Positions 1-11,991 of a DNA stretch of 12,774 bases are shown here, one piece after another (position 1 is the first letter of the stretch; each line of letters begins with the position of its first letter). Source of the stretch: Actinobacteria bacterium 13_1_40CM_66_12 (GTDB lineage: Bacteria; Chloroflexota; Dormibacteria; Dormibacterales; Dormibacteraceae). The notes below the pieces were generated by a model. The model searched no databases. It saw only the letters and a list, made by a program, of their open reading frames with translations, and had not been told where the DNA came from. The position numbers and the translations under genes were made by a program. The stretch covers positions 1 through 12,774 of the forward strand of contig MNEW01000040.1 in the NCBI GenBank assembly GCA_001917895.1. Direction: 5' to 3'.

Positions 1-324
1 CCCGCCGGTCGAGGTCTTGAGGCCGGTGTCCATCAGATGGACCTTCCAATCGTCGACCTCCGACTCGTGAAAGCTCGCGCGGCCCGTGGCGACGTCGATG
101 GTCACGCTCTTGCTCATGCCGTGGTAGTCGAGGAAGTAGCGCTTGATGACCTCGCCCTTGTAACCGAGGGCGACGAAGAACTCCTTGAATCCCTGGGTCG
201 CGTACGACTTCATGATGTGCCACAGGATCGGGCGCTCTCCGATGTCGACCATCGGTTTTGGACGCAGCTCCGTCTCCTCGGAGAGCCGGGTGCCGAGGCC
301 ACCGGCCAGGATCACGACTTTCAT
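1..324 (-). CDS. rfbF: Glucose-1-phosphate cytidylyltransferase, N-terminal part (cut by window edge)
   Basis: The reverse strand reads from an ATG at 324-322 to the window edge, giving 108 residues; the C-terminal half lies outside. The enzyme couples CTP and glucose 1-phosphate to CDP-glucose, the entry to CDP-linked dideoxysugars of O-antigens. Seen: the nucleotidyltransferase loop LAGGLGTRL at residues 6-14, the RPKPMVDIG segment with Lys23, PILWHIMK at 32-39, and a DTG...TGG stretch at 99-108 that matches my memory of Salmonella RfbF and separates it from glucose-1-phosphate thymidylyl- or uridylyltransferases. The ATG overlaps the TGA of the upstream ligase-like gene (ATGA at 324-321), so translational coupling is likely. 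A TAGGCT box 9 nt upstream could also give a leaderless start. A CDP-glucose 4,6-dehydratase would be expected just beyond the window. Confidence 0.9.
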   Translation of the reverse strand, partial: MKVVILAGGLGTRLSEETELRPKPMVDIGERPILWHIMKSYATQGFKEFFVALGYKGEVIKRYFLDYHGMSKSVTIDVATGRASFHESEVDDWKVHLMDTGLKTSTGG

Positions 325-333
325 GCGGCGACT

Positions 334-339
334 AGCCTA
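334..339 (-). promoter_or_regulatory. TAGGCT -10-like box before rfbF
   Basis: TAGGCT on the minus strand lies 9 nt before the rfbF ATG and fits the TANNNT pattern seen before other genes here. It is inside the last codons of the upstream ligase-like gene, and the ATGA overlap offers another way to start translation, so this one may be chance. Confidence 0.3.
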
Positions 340-1365
340 CCAATGGGTTGCGTTTTCTGCCTCTGGCCCGCAACGGTCACTGAATACCCGACTGCCCACC
401 AGAACAGGAAGGTGACCGAGAAGTCGGACCACACGTCGCTGGTCAGCGTGATCAGGATCAGCACCACTCCGCCCACAGCGGCGACCAGCGGCAGAGCCTG
501 CGCGAGCGACCGGCGTGGAGCAATCAGGAAGGCGCGCAGGCCGAAGTACATGCCGAGGACATACAGCGCGACATAGAGCACGCCACCCACGAGGCCGACA
601 TCGCCGAAGAAGCCGAGCACCGCGCTCTCGCCGGTCCCCGCAGTGTCGACGGTTGTCTGCACAAAGCGATGGACCGATCCGCCCAACCCGCTGCCAAGCG
701 GGTGATGGCTGACCACCTTCATGTCGGCGGCGAGGGCGCGGAGGTGCTCGGCAAACGAGGGGTCGCCGATGTACAGGATCGTGTGCCGGTGCGATTCGCC
801 GGGCAGCAAGTACGGGTCCACGACAGGCCCGACCTGCGGGTACAGGAACAGGACGGCGGCCACGCATGCGATGACCACCGGAGCCAGCGCCAGGGCAAGC
901 CGCGTCCTAAAAAGCACCGCGAGCAAGACGACCTCGCCCGCCAGCATCAACAGCGCCAGCCTTGTGACGGCGAAGAGAATTCCGAGGAGTAGGAACGCCG
1001 CCGCCACGGCTGCGAGCGCCCTTATGCGCCGGCTCAGGTTGGGTCGATCCATCATCACGACCGCGATCGGCCATGCGAGCAGCCCGGTGTATGCGATGCC
1101 CAGCGGGCTGATGTACGTGGACACCATGCGCCTGAGCAGCAGGCCGTCGGGCAGGCTCTGAAAGAAGTTGGCGGGCAAGCCGGCGGGTCCGTTGTATTTG
1201 AATCCCAGCCAGCTCGAGAAGAGGTTGACGCCCCAATCGAGCCAGGTTGCCGTGGGCACGAGCCAGAGCTCGTAGAGGCCGAAGGCGCCGACGACGGCAC
1301 CCGCGCCGACGATGAGCCAGTACGCATCTCTCAGGTCGAGCTCAGACGGGCTCGAGAAGACCCGG

Positions 1366-1391
1366 CCCAGCGCGTAAAGCAGCGGGATGAG
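1366..1391 (+). repeat. Inverted repeat, native arm (26 bp)
   Basis: On the minus strand this stretch encodes LIPLLYALG within a membrane helix of the ligase-like protein, continuous in frame with the sequence on both sides. It is therefore the likely source copy. Its exact reverse complement is at 1551-1576, separated by 159 bp. The match stops at both ends: 1365 against 1577 and 1392 against 1550 do not pair. Confidence 0.9.
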
Positions 1392-1550
1392 CGCCGCGGT
1401 GCGGAAGGCGGCCAGCCTCTGCAGGAAGTTCGCGCTGCCGGGCAGCACGCTCGAGGGCAGCAGCAGGTACACGATCAAGACCAAAGCGAACGCGAGCACG
1501 ATCCAGTCAGTTGGAATCAGTTGTGGAAGCAATCGCCGCACTTGCCAGCT

Positions 1551-1576
1551 CTCATCCCGCTGCTTTACGCGCTGGG
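1551..1576 (-). repeat. Inverted repeat, copied arm at the frame break (26 bp)
   Basis: This is the exact reverse complement of 1366-1391. Read on the minus strand it follows the codons for HTPS, and its GCG TAA ends the first frame. The second frame resumes as protein-like sequence directly after it, at 1550. The six bases CCCAGC at its upstream edge (1576-1571) can belong either to the native HTPS codons or to the copy, which is microhomology of the kind expected in a template switch. Confidence 0.85.
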
Positions 1577-1748
1577 AGTGTGCAGGGCAAGCAGGACCAT
1601 CAGCGCGAAGTTGTGAAACGCCATTCCTCCGACCAGGACGCCCAGCCCGACGAACGGCCGGCGCCACACGAGCCACAGTCCCACGGCGACAAGACAGAGC
1701 AGGAGGACGGCGAGACCCGCGCCGATCACGGAGTTGGGCACGGCGCTC

Positions 1749-1798: not shown

Positions 1799-3304
1799 AT
1801 GGCTCGCCGGTCACCCGGCGGTCAGGCCCGAGTCGAACAGGCCACGCCGCCGGCCATCACCATTCCGCTGCCGATCACGCCGCCGGCGGGTCGTCTTGTC
1901 TTCCTTCCACCCGACTGGCTGCCCAAAGCGCTCATCGCCGGTGACATCGTCATCGCGGCGGCGTCGGTGCTGCTCGCGTACTGGTTCCACCACAGATTCG
2001 ACCCGATCCACACCCTCACCCCGGGCGAGCTGCCGCTCGGGCCGTACCTGGCCGCGATCCCGTTCGTGGTCCTCATCTACGTCGCCGCGCTGACCGCCAA
2101 TCACCAGTACCAGTCCTGGCGCGGGCGCACCCTCGTGGACCTCCTGCTGCAGCTCTACAGCGGTATCGGTCTGGCGGCCATATTGATTCTGGCGGTGATC
2201 TCGATCACCAACCTGGGATCTCACTACTCCAGGCTGACGATCACCTACGCCATCGTCCTCAGCGCGGTCCTCATGACCGTCGAGCGCTACTTCCTGCGCC
2301 AGTACGAGACCCGCTTGCGAAGGCAGGGGATCGGCACGGAGCGCGTGCTGATGGTCGGCACCGGGGCCGGAAGCGAGATGCTGATCCAGCGGATGAACAT
2401 GTTTCCGCAGTACGGGTTCCAGGTCATCGGCGTCGCCGACGACGATCGCGCGCCCGGCTCGACCTTCGCCGGGGCGCCGGTGGTCGGCAAGATCGACGAG
2501 CTGCACAGCCTGGCGCAGGACCTGCGCGTCGACCAGGTCTTCCTGGCCCTGACGAGCGGCAGCCGCACCGAGCTCATGAAGCTGATCAAGCTCTGCGAGG
2601 ATCAGAACCTCGAGTTCAAGATCGTCCCCGACCTGCTCGACGTCATGAGCACGCGCGTCGACGTGAACGCCATCGACGGCGTGCCGCTGGTCGGCATCCG
2701 GCGCAACCGGCTGCGCGGCGCCAATGCCGCGATCAAGCGCGCCATCGACGTCGCGGTCAGCGCCGTCCTGCTGCTGGTGCTGAGCCCGATCCTGCTCATC
2801 ATCGCGGTGTTCATCAAGGTCACCTCGCCTAAGGGGCCGGTCATCTTCCGGCAAGAGCGCATCGGCATGTACAGGCGGCCGTTCATGGTGTTCAAGTTCC
2901 GGACGATGATCCCGGACGCGGAGGCGGCGAGCGGACCGATGGTCGCCAAGCCTGGCGATCCGCGCACGACGATGTTGGGCCGGATCTTGCGGCGGATCAG
3001 CCTCGACGAGCTGCCGCAGCTCTACAACATCCTGCGAGGCGACATGAGCCTGGTCGGGCCGCGCCCGCAGCCAACGTTTTTCGACGAGCGCTACAGCGTC
3101 GACGTGCCGCGCTACTTAGAGCGACAGCAGGTGCGGCCGGGCCTGACGGGTTGGGCGGAGGTCAACGACCTTCGCGGCGCGGCCCCCATCGGCGACCGCA
3201 CGCTCTACGACGTTTACTACATCGAGAGCTGGTCTCTGGCGCTGGACGTCAAGATCCTGCTGCTGACGGGCATTCGGATATTCTTCCAGCGCCACGCGTA
3301 CTGA
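1799..3304 (+). CDS. Polyprenyl-phosphate sugar-1-phosphate transferase (WcaJ/WbaP-type)
   Basis: Transfers a sugar 1-phosphate from a nucleotide sugar to undecaprenyl phosphate at the inner membrane, the first step of exopolysaccharide or O-antigen assembly. The 501 residues show a Pro-rich N-terminal tail (1-40), four membrane helices (about 45-65, 84-103, 113-135, 147-163), a Rossmann-like CoA-binding-type middle domain starting at ERVLMVGTGAGSEML (181-195), then the bacterial sugar transferase domain from about 311. The latter has a membrane segment (317-339), FRQERIGMYRRPFMVFKFRT (350-369), SLDELPQLYNILRGDMSLVG (401-420) with PRPQP, and RPGLTGWAEVN (446-456). This is full length for the five-helix family. 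The sugar, perhaps glucose or galactose, cannot be read from sequence. It starts divergently from the broken ligase-like gene behind a TACCCT box and probably leads the plus-strand polysaccharide genes. Confidence 0.93.
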   Translation: MARRSPGGQARVEQATPPAITIPLPITPPAGRLVFLPPDWLPKALIAGDIVIAAASVLLAYWFHHRFDPIHTLTPGELPLGPYLAAIPFVVLIYVAALTANHQYQSWRGRTLVDLLLQLYSGIGLAAILILAVISITNLGSHYSRLTITYAIVLSAVLMTVERYFLRQYETRLRRQGIGTERVLMVGTGAGSEMLIQRMNMFPQYGFQVIGVADDDRAPGSTFAGAPVVGKIDELHSLAQDLRVDQVFLALTSGSRTELMKLIKLCEDQNLEFKIVPDLLDVMSTRVDVNAIDGVPLVGIRRNRLRGANAAIKRAIDVAVSAVLLLVLSPILLIIAVFIKVTSPKGPVIFRQERIGMYRRPFMVFKFRTMIPDAEAASGPMVAKPGDPRTTMLGRILRRISLDELPQLYNILRGDMSLVGPRPQPTFFDERYSVDVPRYLERQQVRPGLTGWAEVNDLRGAAPIGDRTLYDVYYIESWSLALDVKILLLTGIRIFFQRHAY

Positions 3305-3359
3305 ACTCGACGCCTTTCTAAAGGTCGCACCCTAACGGCTTCTATCCGACCACACTGCT

Positions 3360-3363
3360 GGAG
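3360..3363 (+). promoter_or_regulatory. GGAG, possible ribosome binding site for GTG 3373
   Basis: GGAG lies 9 nt before GTG 3373. It would support that start, but the same bases also read as codons (CTG GAG) of an open frame that looks like part of the protein, so the match may be chance. Confidence 0.35.
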
Positions 3364-3372
3364 ACGGCGATC

Positions 3373-4473
3373 GTGGTCACGGTGCTCGTCTTCGCGTTAG
3401 AAACGTGGCGCGCTCACCTTGCACTGCAGTGGCGCACGGCGTTCACGGTTCCGGCGCTGATCTTCATTTTCGCGGGCGCGATTTCGGTGCTGGTCGCTCC
3501 GAACAGAACCGCTGGGCTCGGCTTGTTCCGCGCCTACATCATCGAACCGATCGCTTTCGCGTTCGTGCTCCTTCACGCGGTGACCACGTGGCGGCGCGCT
3601 GTCGTCGTGCTTTCAGGCTTCGCCGTTGCCGGCGTTGTGGTCGGCATCGCCAACTCGGTCGTTGTCATCGAGGCATTGCGGGCGCACACGTACGACGTCG
3701 CGCAGACGCCGCCGGTCGTCATCTACACCACCGCCAACGCGCTGGCGCTGTTCCTGGGCCCGCTGATCGCCGTCGCGGCGAGTTTGTTCCTGCACGGGAC
3801 GGATAGCGTGACGCGCATCGGCAGCGGCGCCTTTCTGATCGTCGCCGTGCCGTCGATGCTCCTCAGCTTCTCGCGCGGTGGCTACCTGGCGATGGCCGCG
3901 GTCGCGGTCGGGCTGGCGCTTTCGCACCGGCGCCGCTGGTTGTTGCTGGCCGGCCTGGTGATCGCGGGCGGTTTGGTCTCCGCCATCCCGCCGATCTTTC
4001 ATCGGATCTCGATCGAGTTTCAGAACGTCGGCGGGACCACGTTCTTCGGCCGCGCGGGCCGCCTCGAGCTCTGGTCGGCGACGTTGCGAATGCTCAGCCA
4101 CTACCCGATCTTCGGCGTCGGCCTGTCGGGTTTTGCCGAGCGCATCGGCCCGTACTGGAACGCCAACCATCCAGAGCGCTTCATCGACCCGCACAACATC
4201 GTCCTCAACTTCTGGGTCGAGACAGGGCTGCTCGGCCTGTTCGCGTTCGTATGGCTGCTGGTGGTCGTGCTTCGCATTTCCTGGGAGGGCTGGAAGCAGT
4301 CCGATTCCGAGTGGCGCCCGATATTCCTCGGCGTTCTGCTGGCGATGGTCGCGATCGTCGTCCACGGTCTGGTCGACGTGCCCTACTTCAAAAACGATCT
4401 CAGCCTCTTGTTCTGGGCTCTTGCGGGGCTGGCCGCCGCCGGCCAGAAGACGCTGAAAACCGGGCTGCGGTAA
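3373..4473 (+). CDS. O-antigen ligase/polymerase-like membrane protein (Wzy/WaaL type), possibly N-terminally truncated
   Basis: Polytopic inner-membrane protein of the O-antigen ligase family, which polymerises or attaches lipid-linked glycans. From GTG 3373 it has 366 residues with about nine or ten hydrophobic segments. Family-like features: [11 protein letters not shown] (165-175) with Arg168, [12 protein letters not shown] (243-254) and [18 protein letters not shown] (272-289) with His274, the usual large periplasmic-loop signatures with Arg and His. The frame stays open upstream of GTG 3373 to a TAA at 3319-3321 and reads [12 protein letters not shown] straight into the first helix, which looks like real protein; family members usually have further N-terminal helices, absent here. 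So the gene is either 5'-truncated or starts at GTG 3373 with GGAG in front. It lies 68 bp after the sugar transferase and 13 bp before fcl. Confidence 0.82.
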
Positions 4474-9513: not shown

Positions 9514-11715
9514 TCAGCAGGATTCGGCGCTGCCCGGGAGGAAGTAGGCGCCAGAAGCGGCCACGGCGGTGCCGGCTTGCGCGAGCACGACGATGGCACC
9601 GGCCTTGGCGGAGGGCAGCGTTATCGCGAAGCCGCCCTTCGGTGCGGGCAGGAAGATCCGGAATGTGGGATTGGGCGTGTCAGTCCGCTTGAAGACAGTC
9701 GTGGTCGTGCCCGTACAGCGGTCGAAGAAGTTCACCGAGTAGGTCAGCTGGCCGACGGCTGCGTCGTAGTAGATCCCGATGTCTACGTGGCAGGTTCCGT
9801 TCAGCGTGCAGTTGGTGTCCGCCGACGTGGCCCCCTGGCAAGGCGCCTGTGGCAGGCAGAATTGGACTTTGGTGATCGGGCTGCTGCTCTCGGGCGCGTA
9901 GGCCGGCACCGGCTGCAGCGCGGTTCCAGATGAAGGCGAAGCCTTCGGTGAGGTCTTCGGTGAGGTCTTCGGTGAGGTCTTCGTGCCGGGTGACTGCGTT
10001 GTGCCGACGTTGTTTGAGGATCCACCTCGAGTGGCCGCGAAAATGCCGCCGCCCACGCCGATCAGAAGCAGCAGCACGATCGCCGCGATCGCCGGCACCA
10101 GCCATGGCGGCCGCTCGGATTGCTGGTCGCGGACCGGGCGGCGGGGGGCGGGGGGCTTTCGCGCGGGCGCCGACGGCACCGGGACCGGAGCCGGCGTCGA
10201 AACCGGTGCGCGGGTGGTCGTCGGTGAAGGCGCGGGCGCCACGTACGCCGGGGCGGCAGGCGTCGGTTCGGGTGGGGCCTTCTCCACTTCCTTGGGGGCG
10301 ATCTCCCCGGCCGGCGTCCAAGCCGGGGTCGGAATCGAGGTCCAGCTGGGCTTCGACTCGGCCGGGGCGGGCTCCGGCGCCTTCTCCGGGGCCGGGGCCG
10401 CGGGCTCTGCCGGCGCCTCGGTGGCAGGCTTGGGCGGAAGGGGAGCGGGTTCCCACGTTTCGATTGGCTTTGGCGTGGGCTCGGCAGGCTTGGGGGGCGC
10501 TGCGGGGGCCTCCGGCGGGGGCGCGATCGGCACGCCGCCCCAGGTAGCTTGCGGGGAGACCGGTTTCTCATCCCACGTTGGGACCGCTGAGGGCGGCGAA
10601 GGCGGCTCGGCCGGCTTCGGCGGGACGGTTGGGAACGTTTCGGGCGCCCGGGGCGCGGGCTCGTAGGAGGCCGGTGGGCGCACCTCCTCGTCGGGAGGTC
10701 GAGGCGGCGGTACGTAGGGCGGCGGGACCGGAGGCGCTGGAGGGGGCGGATAAGTTTCAAGCGAACGCGAAGGGGCGTCATAAGACACCGGAGCGCGCGC
10801 GGGCGTCTCGTCGGGCGCGGGGCTCGGAGTGAAGGTGCTCGTGGGCGCAGGAGGCTGCTGTTGCGGAGCCGGGGCGGGGGCCGGCGCGGGCGCGGGCGCG
10901 CCCCAGGGCAGCGGTCCTGATGGCGTTTGCGTATGCGATGTCGACGGTGCGGGCGGGAACGTCTCCTTGGGCAGGAACGGAGTGATCGATGGCATCTCGC
11001 GACCGCCTGCACGCAACGCGAGCTCCGACTGCGCGGCGGTCATGCGGTCAGGCGCGAGCAGGGCGGCTGCCATTTCGCGCAGCGCTCCCTGGGCTCTGTC
11101 CGCGGCCGGGCCCATCGCGCCGCTTGCCATCGAGCGCATCGTGACCACCAATCCGGGCGGGATGCTCGGCGGGGCCGGCGCGCCGGCCGGGTCCACGCCG
11201 AATGCCGCGCATATCGCCATGCCACATGAGCGCACGTCCGCACGCAGATCGCTTTGCGATGGAGCGCCACGCACCGCGGCCGCGGGATGACCGCTGAGCC
11301 GCACCTCACCGTTTCCGGTCACGCGAATCGCGGCGGCGCCGAAACCGCCCATCGCGATGCCGGCCTCGTGCAGTGCCGCGACGCCCGACAGGACCGCGGC
11401 GCCGAGCGCGGCAGCCGCGGGCGGCGTGAGCGGCCCGCGAGAGAGGATCGTGCCCAATGGCGTGCCTTCGTTCGGCTCCACCGCGACCCAGATACCGTTG
11501 GGATCCGTGCCCCATGCAAGCACCGGAGCCAGCGCCGGGTGCCGGTGGTCGGCCAGCCTCTGCAGGCGGGGAACCGCGGCCGCGGCTTCAGCTGCGGGCG
11601 CCGGAATCTCGTGGATCACGACCGCCTTTCCGCTCTTGAGCACCGCCTTCCAGCCCTGGCCCGCGCCAGGCGCGACGAGCTCGATCAGCTTCGGTTTGGT
11701 CTCGCTCTCGGGCAT
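9514..11715 (-). CDS. Membrane-anchored pseudokinase-like protein with proline-rich linker and Cys-rich outer domain
   Basis: The 733 residues from ATG 11715 fall into four parts. Residues 1-235 resemble a Ser/Thr kinase fold: LQRLADHRHPALAPVLAWG (51-69), then LHEAGIAMGGFGAAAIRV (115-132) where HRDxxxxN should be, and EVRLSGH (137-143) where DFG should be. The catalytic Asp, the metal-binding Asn and the DFG Asp are all absent, so it should not phosphorylate. Residues about 243-530 are very rich in Pro, Ala and Glu. A single membrane helix spans about 539-563. Outside lie a (TSPK)3 spacer and a roughly 120-residue domain with six Cys (620, 626, 636, 642, 667, 733). The layout resembles bacterial receptor kinases, so a sensory or scaffolding role is possible; no function is known to me. 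An extra 36 upstream codons overlap the ferredoxin gene and look unreal. It precedes pepN by 24 bp. Confidence 0.85.
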   Translation of the reverse strand: MPESETKPKLIELVAPGAGQGWKAVLKSGKAVVIHEIPAPAAEAAAAVPRLQRLADHRHPALAPVLAWGTDPNGIWVAVEPNEGTPLGTILSRGPLTPPAAAALGAAVLSGVAALHEAGIAMGGFGAAAIRVTGNGEVRLSGHPAAAVRGAPSQSDLRADVRSCGMAICAAFGVDPAGAPAPPSIPPGLVVTMRSMASGAMGPAADRAQGALREMAAALLAPDRMTAAQSELALRAGGREMPSITPFLPKETFPPAPSTSHTQTPSGPLPWGAPAPAPAPAPAPQQQPPAPTSTFTPSPAPDETPARAPVSYDAPSRSLETYPPPPAPPVPPPYVPPPRPPDEEVRPPASYEPAPRAPETFPTVPPKPAEPPSPPSAVPTWDEKPVSPQATWGGVPIAPPPEAPAAPPKPAEPTPKPIETWEPAPLPPKPATEAPAEPAAPAPEKAPEPAPAESKPSWTSIPTPAWTPAGEIAPKEVEKAPPEPTPAAPAYVAPAPSPTTTRAPVSTPAPVPVPSAPARKPPAPRRPVRDQQSERPPWLVPAIAAIVLLLLIGVGGGIFAATRGGSSNNVGTTQSPGTKTSPKTSPKTSPKASPSSGTALQPVPAYAPESSSPITKVQFCLPQAPCQGATSADTNCTLNGTCHVDIGIYYDAAVGQLTYSVNFFDRCTGTTTTVFKRTDTPNPTFRIFLPAPKGGFAITLPSAKAGAIVVLAQAGTAVAASGAYFLPGSAESC
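9943..9983 (+). repeat. 12-bp tandem repeat, three copies plus a 5-bp partial
   Basis: CTTCGGTGAGGT occurs three times without mismatch at 9943-9954, 9955-9966 and 9967-9978, then CTTCG. On the minus strand it encodes TSPK three times in the spacer just outside the membrane helix of the kinase-like protein. A unit of four codons means copy-number change would keep the frame. Confidence 0.9.
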
Positions 11716-11724
11716 ATCGGGTGC

Positions 11725-11730
11725 ATGGTA
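11725..11730 (-). promoter_or_regulatory. TACCAT -10-like box before the kinase-like gene
   Basis: TACCAT on the minus strand lies 9 nt before ATG 11715. It shares 11729-11730 with the opposite-strand TAACCT box of the ferredoxin gene, so both polymerases would compete for the same DNA. No purine-rich ribosome site lies between the box and the ATG. Confidence 0.5.
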
Positions 11731-11734
11731 ACCT
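11729..11734 (+). promoter_or_regulatory. TAACCT -10-like box before the ferredoxin gene
   Basis: TAACCT lies 8 nt before ATG 11743, with TGCGGCAC between them and no Shine-Dalgarno sequence. It fits a leaderless message. It overlaps the divergent TACCAT box by two bases. Confidence 0.55.
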
Positions 11735-11742
11735 TGCGGCAC

Positions 11743-11991
11743 ATGGCTTATGTCATCGTTCAGCCGTGCGTCGGGGTAAAAGATGCCTCTTGCGTAGAGG
11801 TCTGCCCCGTGGACTGTATTCACACTGACGACGCGGCAACGATGTATTTCATCGATCCCGACGAGTGCATCGACTGCGGCGCTTGCGTTGATCCCTGCCC
11901 CGTCGACGCCATCTTCCCCGAGGACGAAGTTCCGGAGCAGTGGCGCGAATACATCAAGATCAACGCGGACTATTTCAAGAATCCTAAGTAA
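11743..11991 (+). CDS. fdxA: Seven-iron [3Fe-4S][4Fe-4S] ferredoxin
   Basis: Small cytoplasmic electron carrier, 82 residues. It begins MAYVIVQPC, as FdxA-type ferredoxins do. Cys9, Cys17 and Cys52 correspond to the 3Fe-4S ligands of Azotobacter ferredoxin I, and Cys21, Cys42, Cys45 and Cys48 to the 4Fe-4S ligands; Cys25 matches the extra free Cys near the cluster. Motifs are CVEVCPVDC (17-25) and CIDCGACVDPCP (42-53). The C-terminal WREYIKINADYF is typical, but the protein stops there and lacks the roughly 20-25 residue tail of longer relatives. The start is set by family alignment and by the TAACCT box 8 nt before ATG; the frame is open further upstream, but that sequence overlaps the divergent gene. 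An isocitrate dehydrogenase follows after 22 bp, probably in the same transcript. Confidence 0.95.
   Translation: MAYVIVQPCVGVKDASCVEVCPVDCIHTDDAATMYFIDPDECIDCGACVDPCPVDAIFPEDEVPEQWREYIKINADYFKNPK

Follow-up and report, generated by a model that had tools for sequence, protein, structure and literature searches.

A 26-nt inverted copy at a frame break in a surface-polysaccharide gene of a Dormibacteraceae bacterium: a probable two-jump template switch

Introduction

In the four-point model of template switching, the growing strand exits at point 1, copies backwards from point 2 to point 3 and resumes at point 4, and the orders 1-4-3-2 and 3-2-1-4 are the majority patterns, yielding single inverted repeats (PMC7954356). 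According to the same study, which concerns great apes, the copied length has a median of 12 and a maximum of 128, 29.5% of the events shorten the sequence, deletions were limited to 50 per event and larger ones with a short copied fragment were unconvincing to its authors under their model; template switches of this type are frequently interpreted as several independent changes lying close together (PMC7954356). Among bacteria, mutation by template switching with the nascent strand has been described for imperfect inverted repeats of Escherichia coli (PMC7202029), and template-switch-like loop inversions are reported for bacterial rRNA genes (PMC8794818). Inverted joins of nearby sequence are also made in vitro as chimeras of phi29 MDA (PMC4595205, PMC6515389), the commonest form of which consists of two parts with a 5-8 nt overlap.

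Here we describe a locus of Actinobacteria bacterium 13_1_40CM_66_12 and compare it with these processes. The window, by which we mean the whole analysed stretch of contig MNEW01000040.1, is 12,774 nt long. Like the products of four-point template switches, the locus carries a short reverse-complement copy of nearby DNA in place of native sequence. It differs from them in its longer copy (26; published median 12) and in the extent of the loss (~93 nt; published limit 50), as well as in being a single case in a bacterial coding gene whose ancestral form is known only through the proteins of relatives. As in the quasipalindrome template-switch mutations of E. coli, which proceed onto the nascent strand (PMC7202029), the host is bacterial, but the E. 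coli process perfects an existing imperfect repeat, whereas none is seen at the protein level in the relatives of this gene, and the spacer here is 159 bp. Compared with the commonest MDA chimera, the locus shows two joins around 26 nt, at which probably no more than ~3-4 nt are shared.

The inverted repeat and the broken gene

Positions 1366-1391 and 1551-1576 of the window are reverse complements of each other (26/26 identical) and are separated by a spacer of 159 bp. On the inner side of the arms, one mismatch is followed by two further matching bases, which extends the similarity to 29 nt at 97%. Among the perfect inverted repeats of the window with arms of at least 12 bp and a spacer of at most 1,000 bp, the next longest after this one are only 13 and 12 bp. 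Order-2 Markov simulation of the window, run 100 times, produced no inverted repeat longer than 16 bp (median of the longest, 12), and 30 loci of relatives (196,646 bases, some loci overlapping) contained two perfect inverted repeats of at least 14 bp with a spacer of at most 600 bp, both of exactly 14 bp. Given these maxima of 16 and 14 bp, the 26-bp repeat is not due to chance. The DNA is predicted to fold into a long hairpin (z -5.46), and 0 of 200 shuffles folded equally well; the fold results from the 26-bp repeat and carries no evidence of function.

Both arms lie within a membrane-protein gene on the minus strand (1741-321) that is distantly similar to O-antigen ligases and belongs to a surface-polysaccharide locus. 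The source arm (1366-1391) consists of native codons for LIPLLYALG on the minus strand and is itself unchanged, the same residues being found in P0001-P0004, the four nearest full-length relatives in the protein database. The second arm (1551-1576, minus strand) is the inverted copy, which replaces ~93 native nt and contains a premature TAA (1567-1565). This stop divides the gene into two pieces. The 5' piece (1565-1741, minus strand) comprises ~58 codons, and by tblastn residues 1-58 of P0002 align to positions 1741-1568; its frame reads ...FVGLGVLVGGMAFHNFALMVLLALHTPSA and closes with ...LALHTPSA before the TAA within the second arm. The 3' piece (321-1550, minus strand), 409 codons plus a stop, is open and 97-98% identical to P0001-P0004; its frame, SWQVRRLLPQLIPTDWI..., resumes with SWQVRRLLP from 1550 and continues to TGA at 323-321. 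Judged from the reading frames, the product would be cut after ~58 residues. Since the downstream 409 codons have stayed open, the lesion is either recent or was made in vitro. An earlier note on this DNA had described a perfect 26-bp inverted repeat with a copy 159 bp away and a frame break at the second arm, where HTPSA-TAA gives way to SWQVRRLLP from 1550, and both descriptions were confirmed.

Comparison with relatives

A protein search with the 409-aa downstream piece, in which the 7,998 candidates sharing most words with the query were scored, matched 458 proteins, the best 120 of which were listed. Among these 120 are the four full-length relatives P0001-P0004 (496 aa), which are 97-98% identical over the whole 409-aa query. 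In all four, 31 residues (93 nt) separate HTP from SW, as exemplified by P0002 (PALIRVVQSWKELVLVLLSLLAVRQLLRARE), whereas the window has 23 nt between the P codon (1576-1574) and the S codon (1550-1548), all of them belonging to the inverted copy. The difference between 93 and 23 nt amounts to a net loss of 70 nt and therefore shifts the frame. At the protein level, the copy was thus absent from the target site in the ancestor, as 31 other residues occupy that site in the four nearest relatives. Within the alignment of the best 120 of the 458 relatives, 116 have all 31 positions filled, and the other four (P0017, P0044, P0085 and P0120) begin inside or after the stretch; truncated forms could lie within 90%-identity clusters. 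Nothing in the rest of the window, on either strand, credibly matches the 31 residues; the best two hits have identities of 27% (22 residues, E 0.03) and 42% (31 residues, E 0.46). A further relative, P0043 (383 aa), is missing an internal stretch, with AAFLLLG joined directly to ILYIGDPSF, which may be an in-frame deletion or an assembly effect.

The relatives also define the edges of the copy. At the upstream edge, CCC (1574-1576, minus strand) is the P codon of HTP and is common to the native sequence and the copy over 2-3 nt, the third base being deduced. At the downstream edge, GAG (1551-1553, minus strand) is probably the native E codon of ARESW, to judge from the proteins, and would be common to the copy over 0-4 nt, most likely 3. 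Each jump may therefore have involved ~2-3 shared nt (0-4 at the second) and at most about 3-4. The earlier note had taken the whole of CCCAGC as both native and copied. Its CCC can be native, but AGC does not fit the four nearest relatives, in which HTP is followed by P and not by S; their proteins thus leave CCC as the sole native candidate. A more distant relative, P0015 (74% identity), does have S after HTP.

DNA relatives are more distant than the nearest proteins. A scan of genome contigs yielded 12 loci, all from MAGs (11 Chloroflexi and one Dormiibacterota), that are 40-70% identical in their best segment, and the protein P0020 (71%) is named Candidatus Dormibacteraceae. Whole-genome searches of overlapping sets found matches in 2 of 2, 10 of 400 and 7 of 42 genomes at 28-70% identity, so that the best genome relative has 70% amino acid identity; a scan of viral contigs found no relative. 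In one MAG (L011, 3362-4755), three frames share the related membrane-protein gene (70% identity in its best segment), which also contains a run of unknown bases; this may be an assembly problem.

Second carriers of the junction were sought with residues 1-45 of the window's 451-codon frame, a query that runs off-frame through the copy to SWQ. The search of the protein database returned 25 candidates, none at E <=1. A lone junction is compatible with an allele private to this genome or with an artefact, and equally with other carriers whose frame was not called as a protein or which lie inside a cluster. A literature search on intragenic inversions found no paper.

Origin of the inverted copy

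We propose that the lesion probably arose in the cell, while DNA was being replicated or a break repaired, through one short-range, two-jump template switch that inactivated the gene. In such an event, the growing strand would depart from its template on one side of the gap, copy ~20-26 nt in reverse orientation from DNA 159 bp away and rejoin the original template ~93 nt further on. If the plus strand was being synthesized, the source would already be present in the new strand, which could have folded back on itself (order 3-2-1-4); if the minus strand was being synthesized, the jump would have had to be made onto the opposite parental strand (order 1-4-3-2). The outcome would be the net loss of 70 nt, the shifted frame and the TAA inside the copy, leaving an inactivated O-antigen ligase/polymerase-like gene. 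This reading is favoured by the 26/26 copy, which is far above chance, the 31 residues kept by the relatives, the edges CCC and GAG, which are compatible with native codons, and the open 409 codons downstream. It is also favoured by the lack of a credible match to the missing stretch in the rest of the window, by a layout that corresponds to the majority orders of the four-point model (PMC7954356) and by the known use of the nascent strand in E. coli template switching (PMC7202029). That a template switch had put an inverted copy in place of a stretch of the gene was already suggested in the earlier note, which also proposed a protein alignment; the alignment, in which the four nearest relatives each have 31 residues between HTP and SW, supports the suggestion. 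We infer that the event was single, took place in the cell and used the shared edge bases, and that the loss of gene function came about through it. Against this reading, the loss of ~93 nt exceeds the limit of 50 applied in the great-ape study and the copy of 26 exceeds the median of 12, the 25 candidates included no other carrier of the junction, and the best-supported E. coli process needs pre-existing imperfect repeats, of which there is no sign here.

An in-vitro origin is the main alternative and is possible, though less likely. The inverted copy would then have been made by phi29 MDA, library preparation or assembly, and the gene would be whole in the organism. The inverted type is dominant among single-end MDA chimeras (91.36% on average; PMC6515389), MDA chimeras may have two or more parts, and their distances are reported to peak at ~250-300 nt (PMC4595205), with which the distance here is compatible. 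The lack of another junction carrier among the 25 candidates speaks for such an origin, as do the relatives reaching the site among the best 120 of 458, which have the whole stretch (116) or start inside it (P0085), and the M1 aminopeptidase frame elsewhere in the window, which is without a common start codon at the expected start and possibly represents another sequence error. By reasoning, however, a chimera requires two jumps around just 26 nt, and the chimeric form must prevail when a contig of at least 12.8 kb is assembled. Moreover, reported MDA overlaps have their peak at 6 nt (PMC4595205), above the ~3-4 nt that are probably the most shared here, and the stretches checked contain no other frame break.

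Two further explanations start from the cell. The ~93-nt deletion and the insertion of the inverted copy could have been separate steps, or the lesion could stem from end-joining repair with a templated patch. The loss is large for a fork slip, and end joining at breaks typically yields deletions that carry a short templated patch. We consider this very unlikely, as an insertion that is 26/26 identical to the same gene points to one copying event and the stretch is complete in 116 relatives (of the best 120 of 458). Repair by end joining would itself be a template switch, and sequence alone does not tell the two apart. The perfect inverted repeats ~160 bp apart in a surface-polysaccharide locus also recall an inverton, in which the 26-bp arms would be recombinase sites flipping the 159-bp spacer to turn the gene on and off. 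Flipping the spacer in silico keeps the same TAA in the upstream frame, and the 31 missing residues have no credible counterpart on either strand of the window, so that the on/off switch is rejected. In addition, one arm is ordinary coding sequence common to relatives, and none of the nine window proteins scanned against Pfam matches a recombinase family, although one could be encoded elsewhere in the genome. We regard an inverton here as scarcely conceivable.

If the template switch is real, the locus is a clean and freshly preserved example of a two-jump inverted switch with a deletion in a natural bacterium. The kind of mutation is already known and is here clearly preserved. With its perfect 26-nt copy and relatives at 97-98% identity, the locus would make a good test case for searching bacterial pangenomes; as a chimera, it would usefully illustrate how an artefact can produce a false pseudogene. 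A much wider proposal, to which we give very little credence, is that a replication or repair process of bacteria generates two-jump inverted patches of long reach (~160 bp) together with large deletions, and that these patches repeatedly and irreversibly switch off surface-polysaccharide genes of the lineage when phages or grazers exert pressure.

Gene family and locus

The window's 409-aa piece matches 0 Pfam families at E <=0.001 and P0002 matches 0 at E <=1, and neither matches an NCBIfam family at E <=0.01. Two of the relatives come close to PF04932 (Wzy_C), P0045 with 30.5 bits and P0113 with 28.3, just under its cut-off of 31.7, and several of the best 120 of the 458 relatives have Wzy_C as a precomputed domain. 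The curated score of PF04932, the O-antigen ligase/polymerase family, is not reached by the window piece or P0002.

The genes around the broken gene place it in a surface-polysaccharide locus: a nucleotidyltransferase, a glycosylphosphotransferase, a gene with Wzy_C and an epimerase. The nucleotidyltransferase gene (1-324, minus strand) is cut by the end of the window, and its start codon (ATG, 324-322) overlaps the stop codon of the broken gene (TGA, 323-321). This overlap suggests that it is perhaps translationally coupled to the broken gene and might lose coupled translation. On the other side lies a divergent and open gene for a polyprenyl glycosylphosphotransferase (1799-3304, plus strand). 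A scan of 1300-1850 predicted 0 promoters and 0 terminators.

A second ligase-like gene with Wzy_C (3373-4473, plus strand) is found ~1.6 kb from the broken gene. It was considered as a second broken gene that had lost the N-terminus of Wzy_C at 3304-3373, but its nearest relative, P0121, starts at the same residue, GTG 3373, and the candidate was not supported. P0122, P0127 and P0143 start 17-18 residues before P0121 and the window's gene; in that region the window has a TAA (3319-3321) and no ATG.

A possible frame break in the M1 aminopeptidase gene was rejected, as the frame is open upstream of 9213 to a stop at 9516-9514. Between 9213 and this stop, the frame (minus strand) contains no ATG, GTG or TTG, and at the expected start there is an ATA (9489-9487), which may be a rare start codon, a loss of the start codon or a sequence error. 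The minus strand at 9514-11823 holds a long frame rich in Pro and Ala, which matches no Pfam family at E <=1 and in which a likely membrane-spanning stretch can be recognized by eye.
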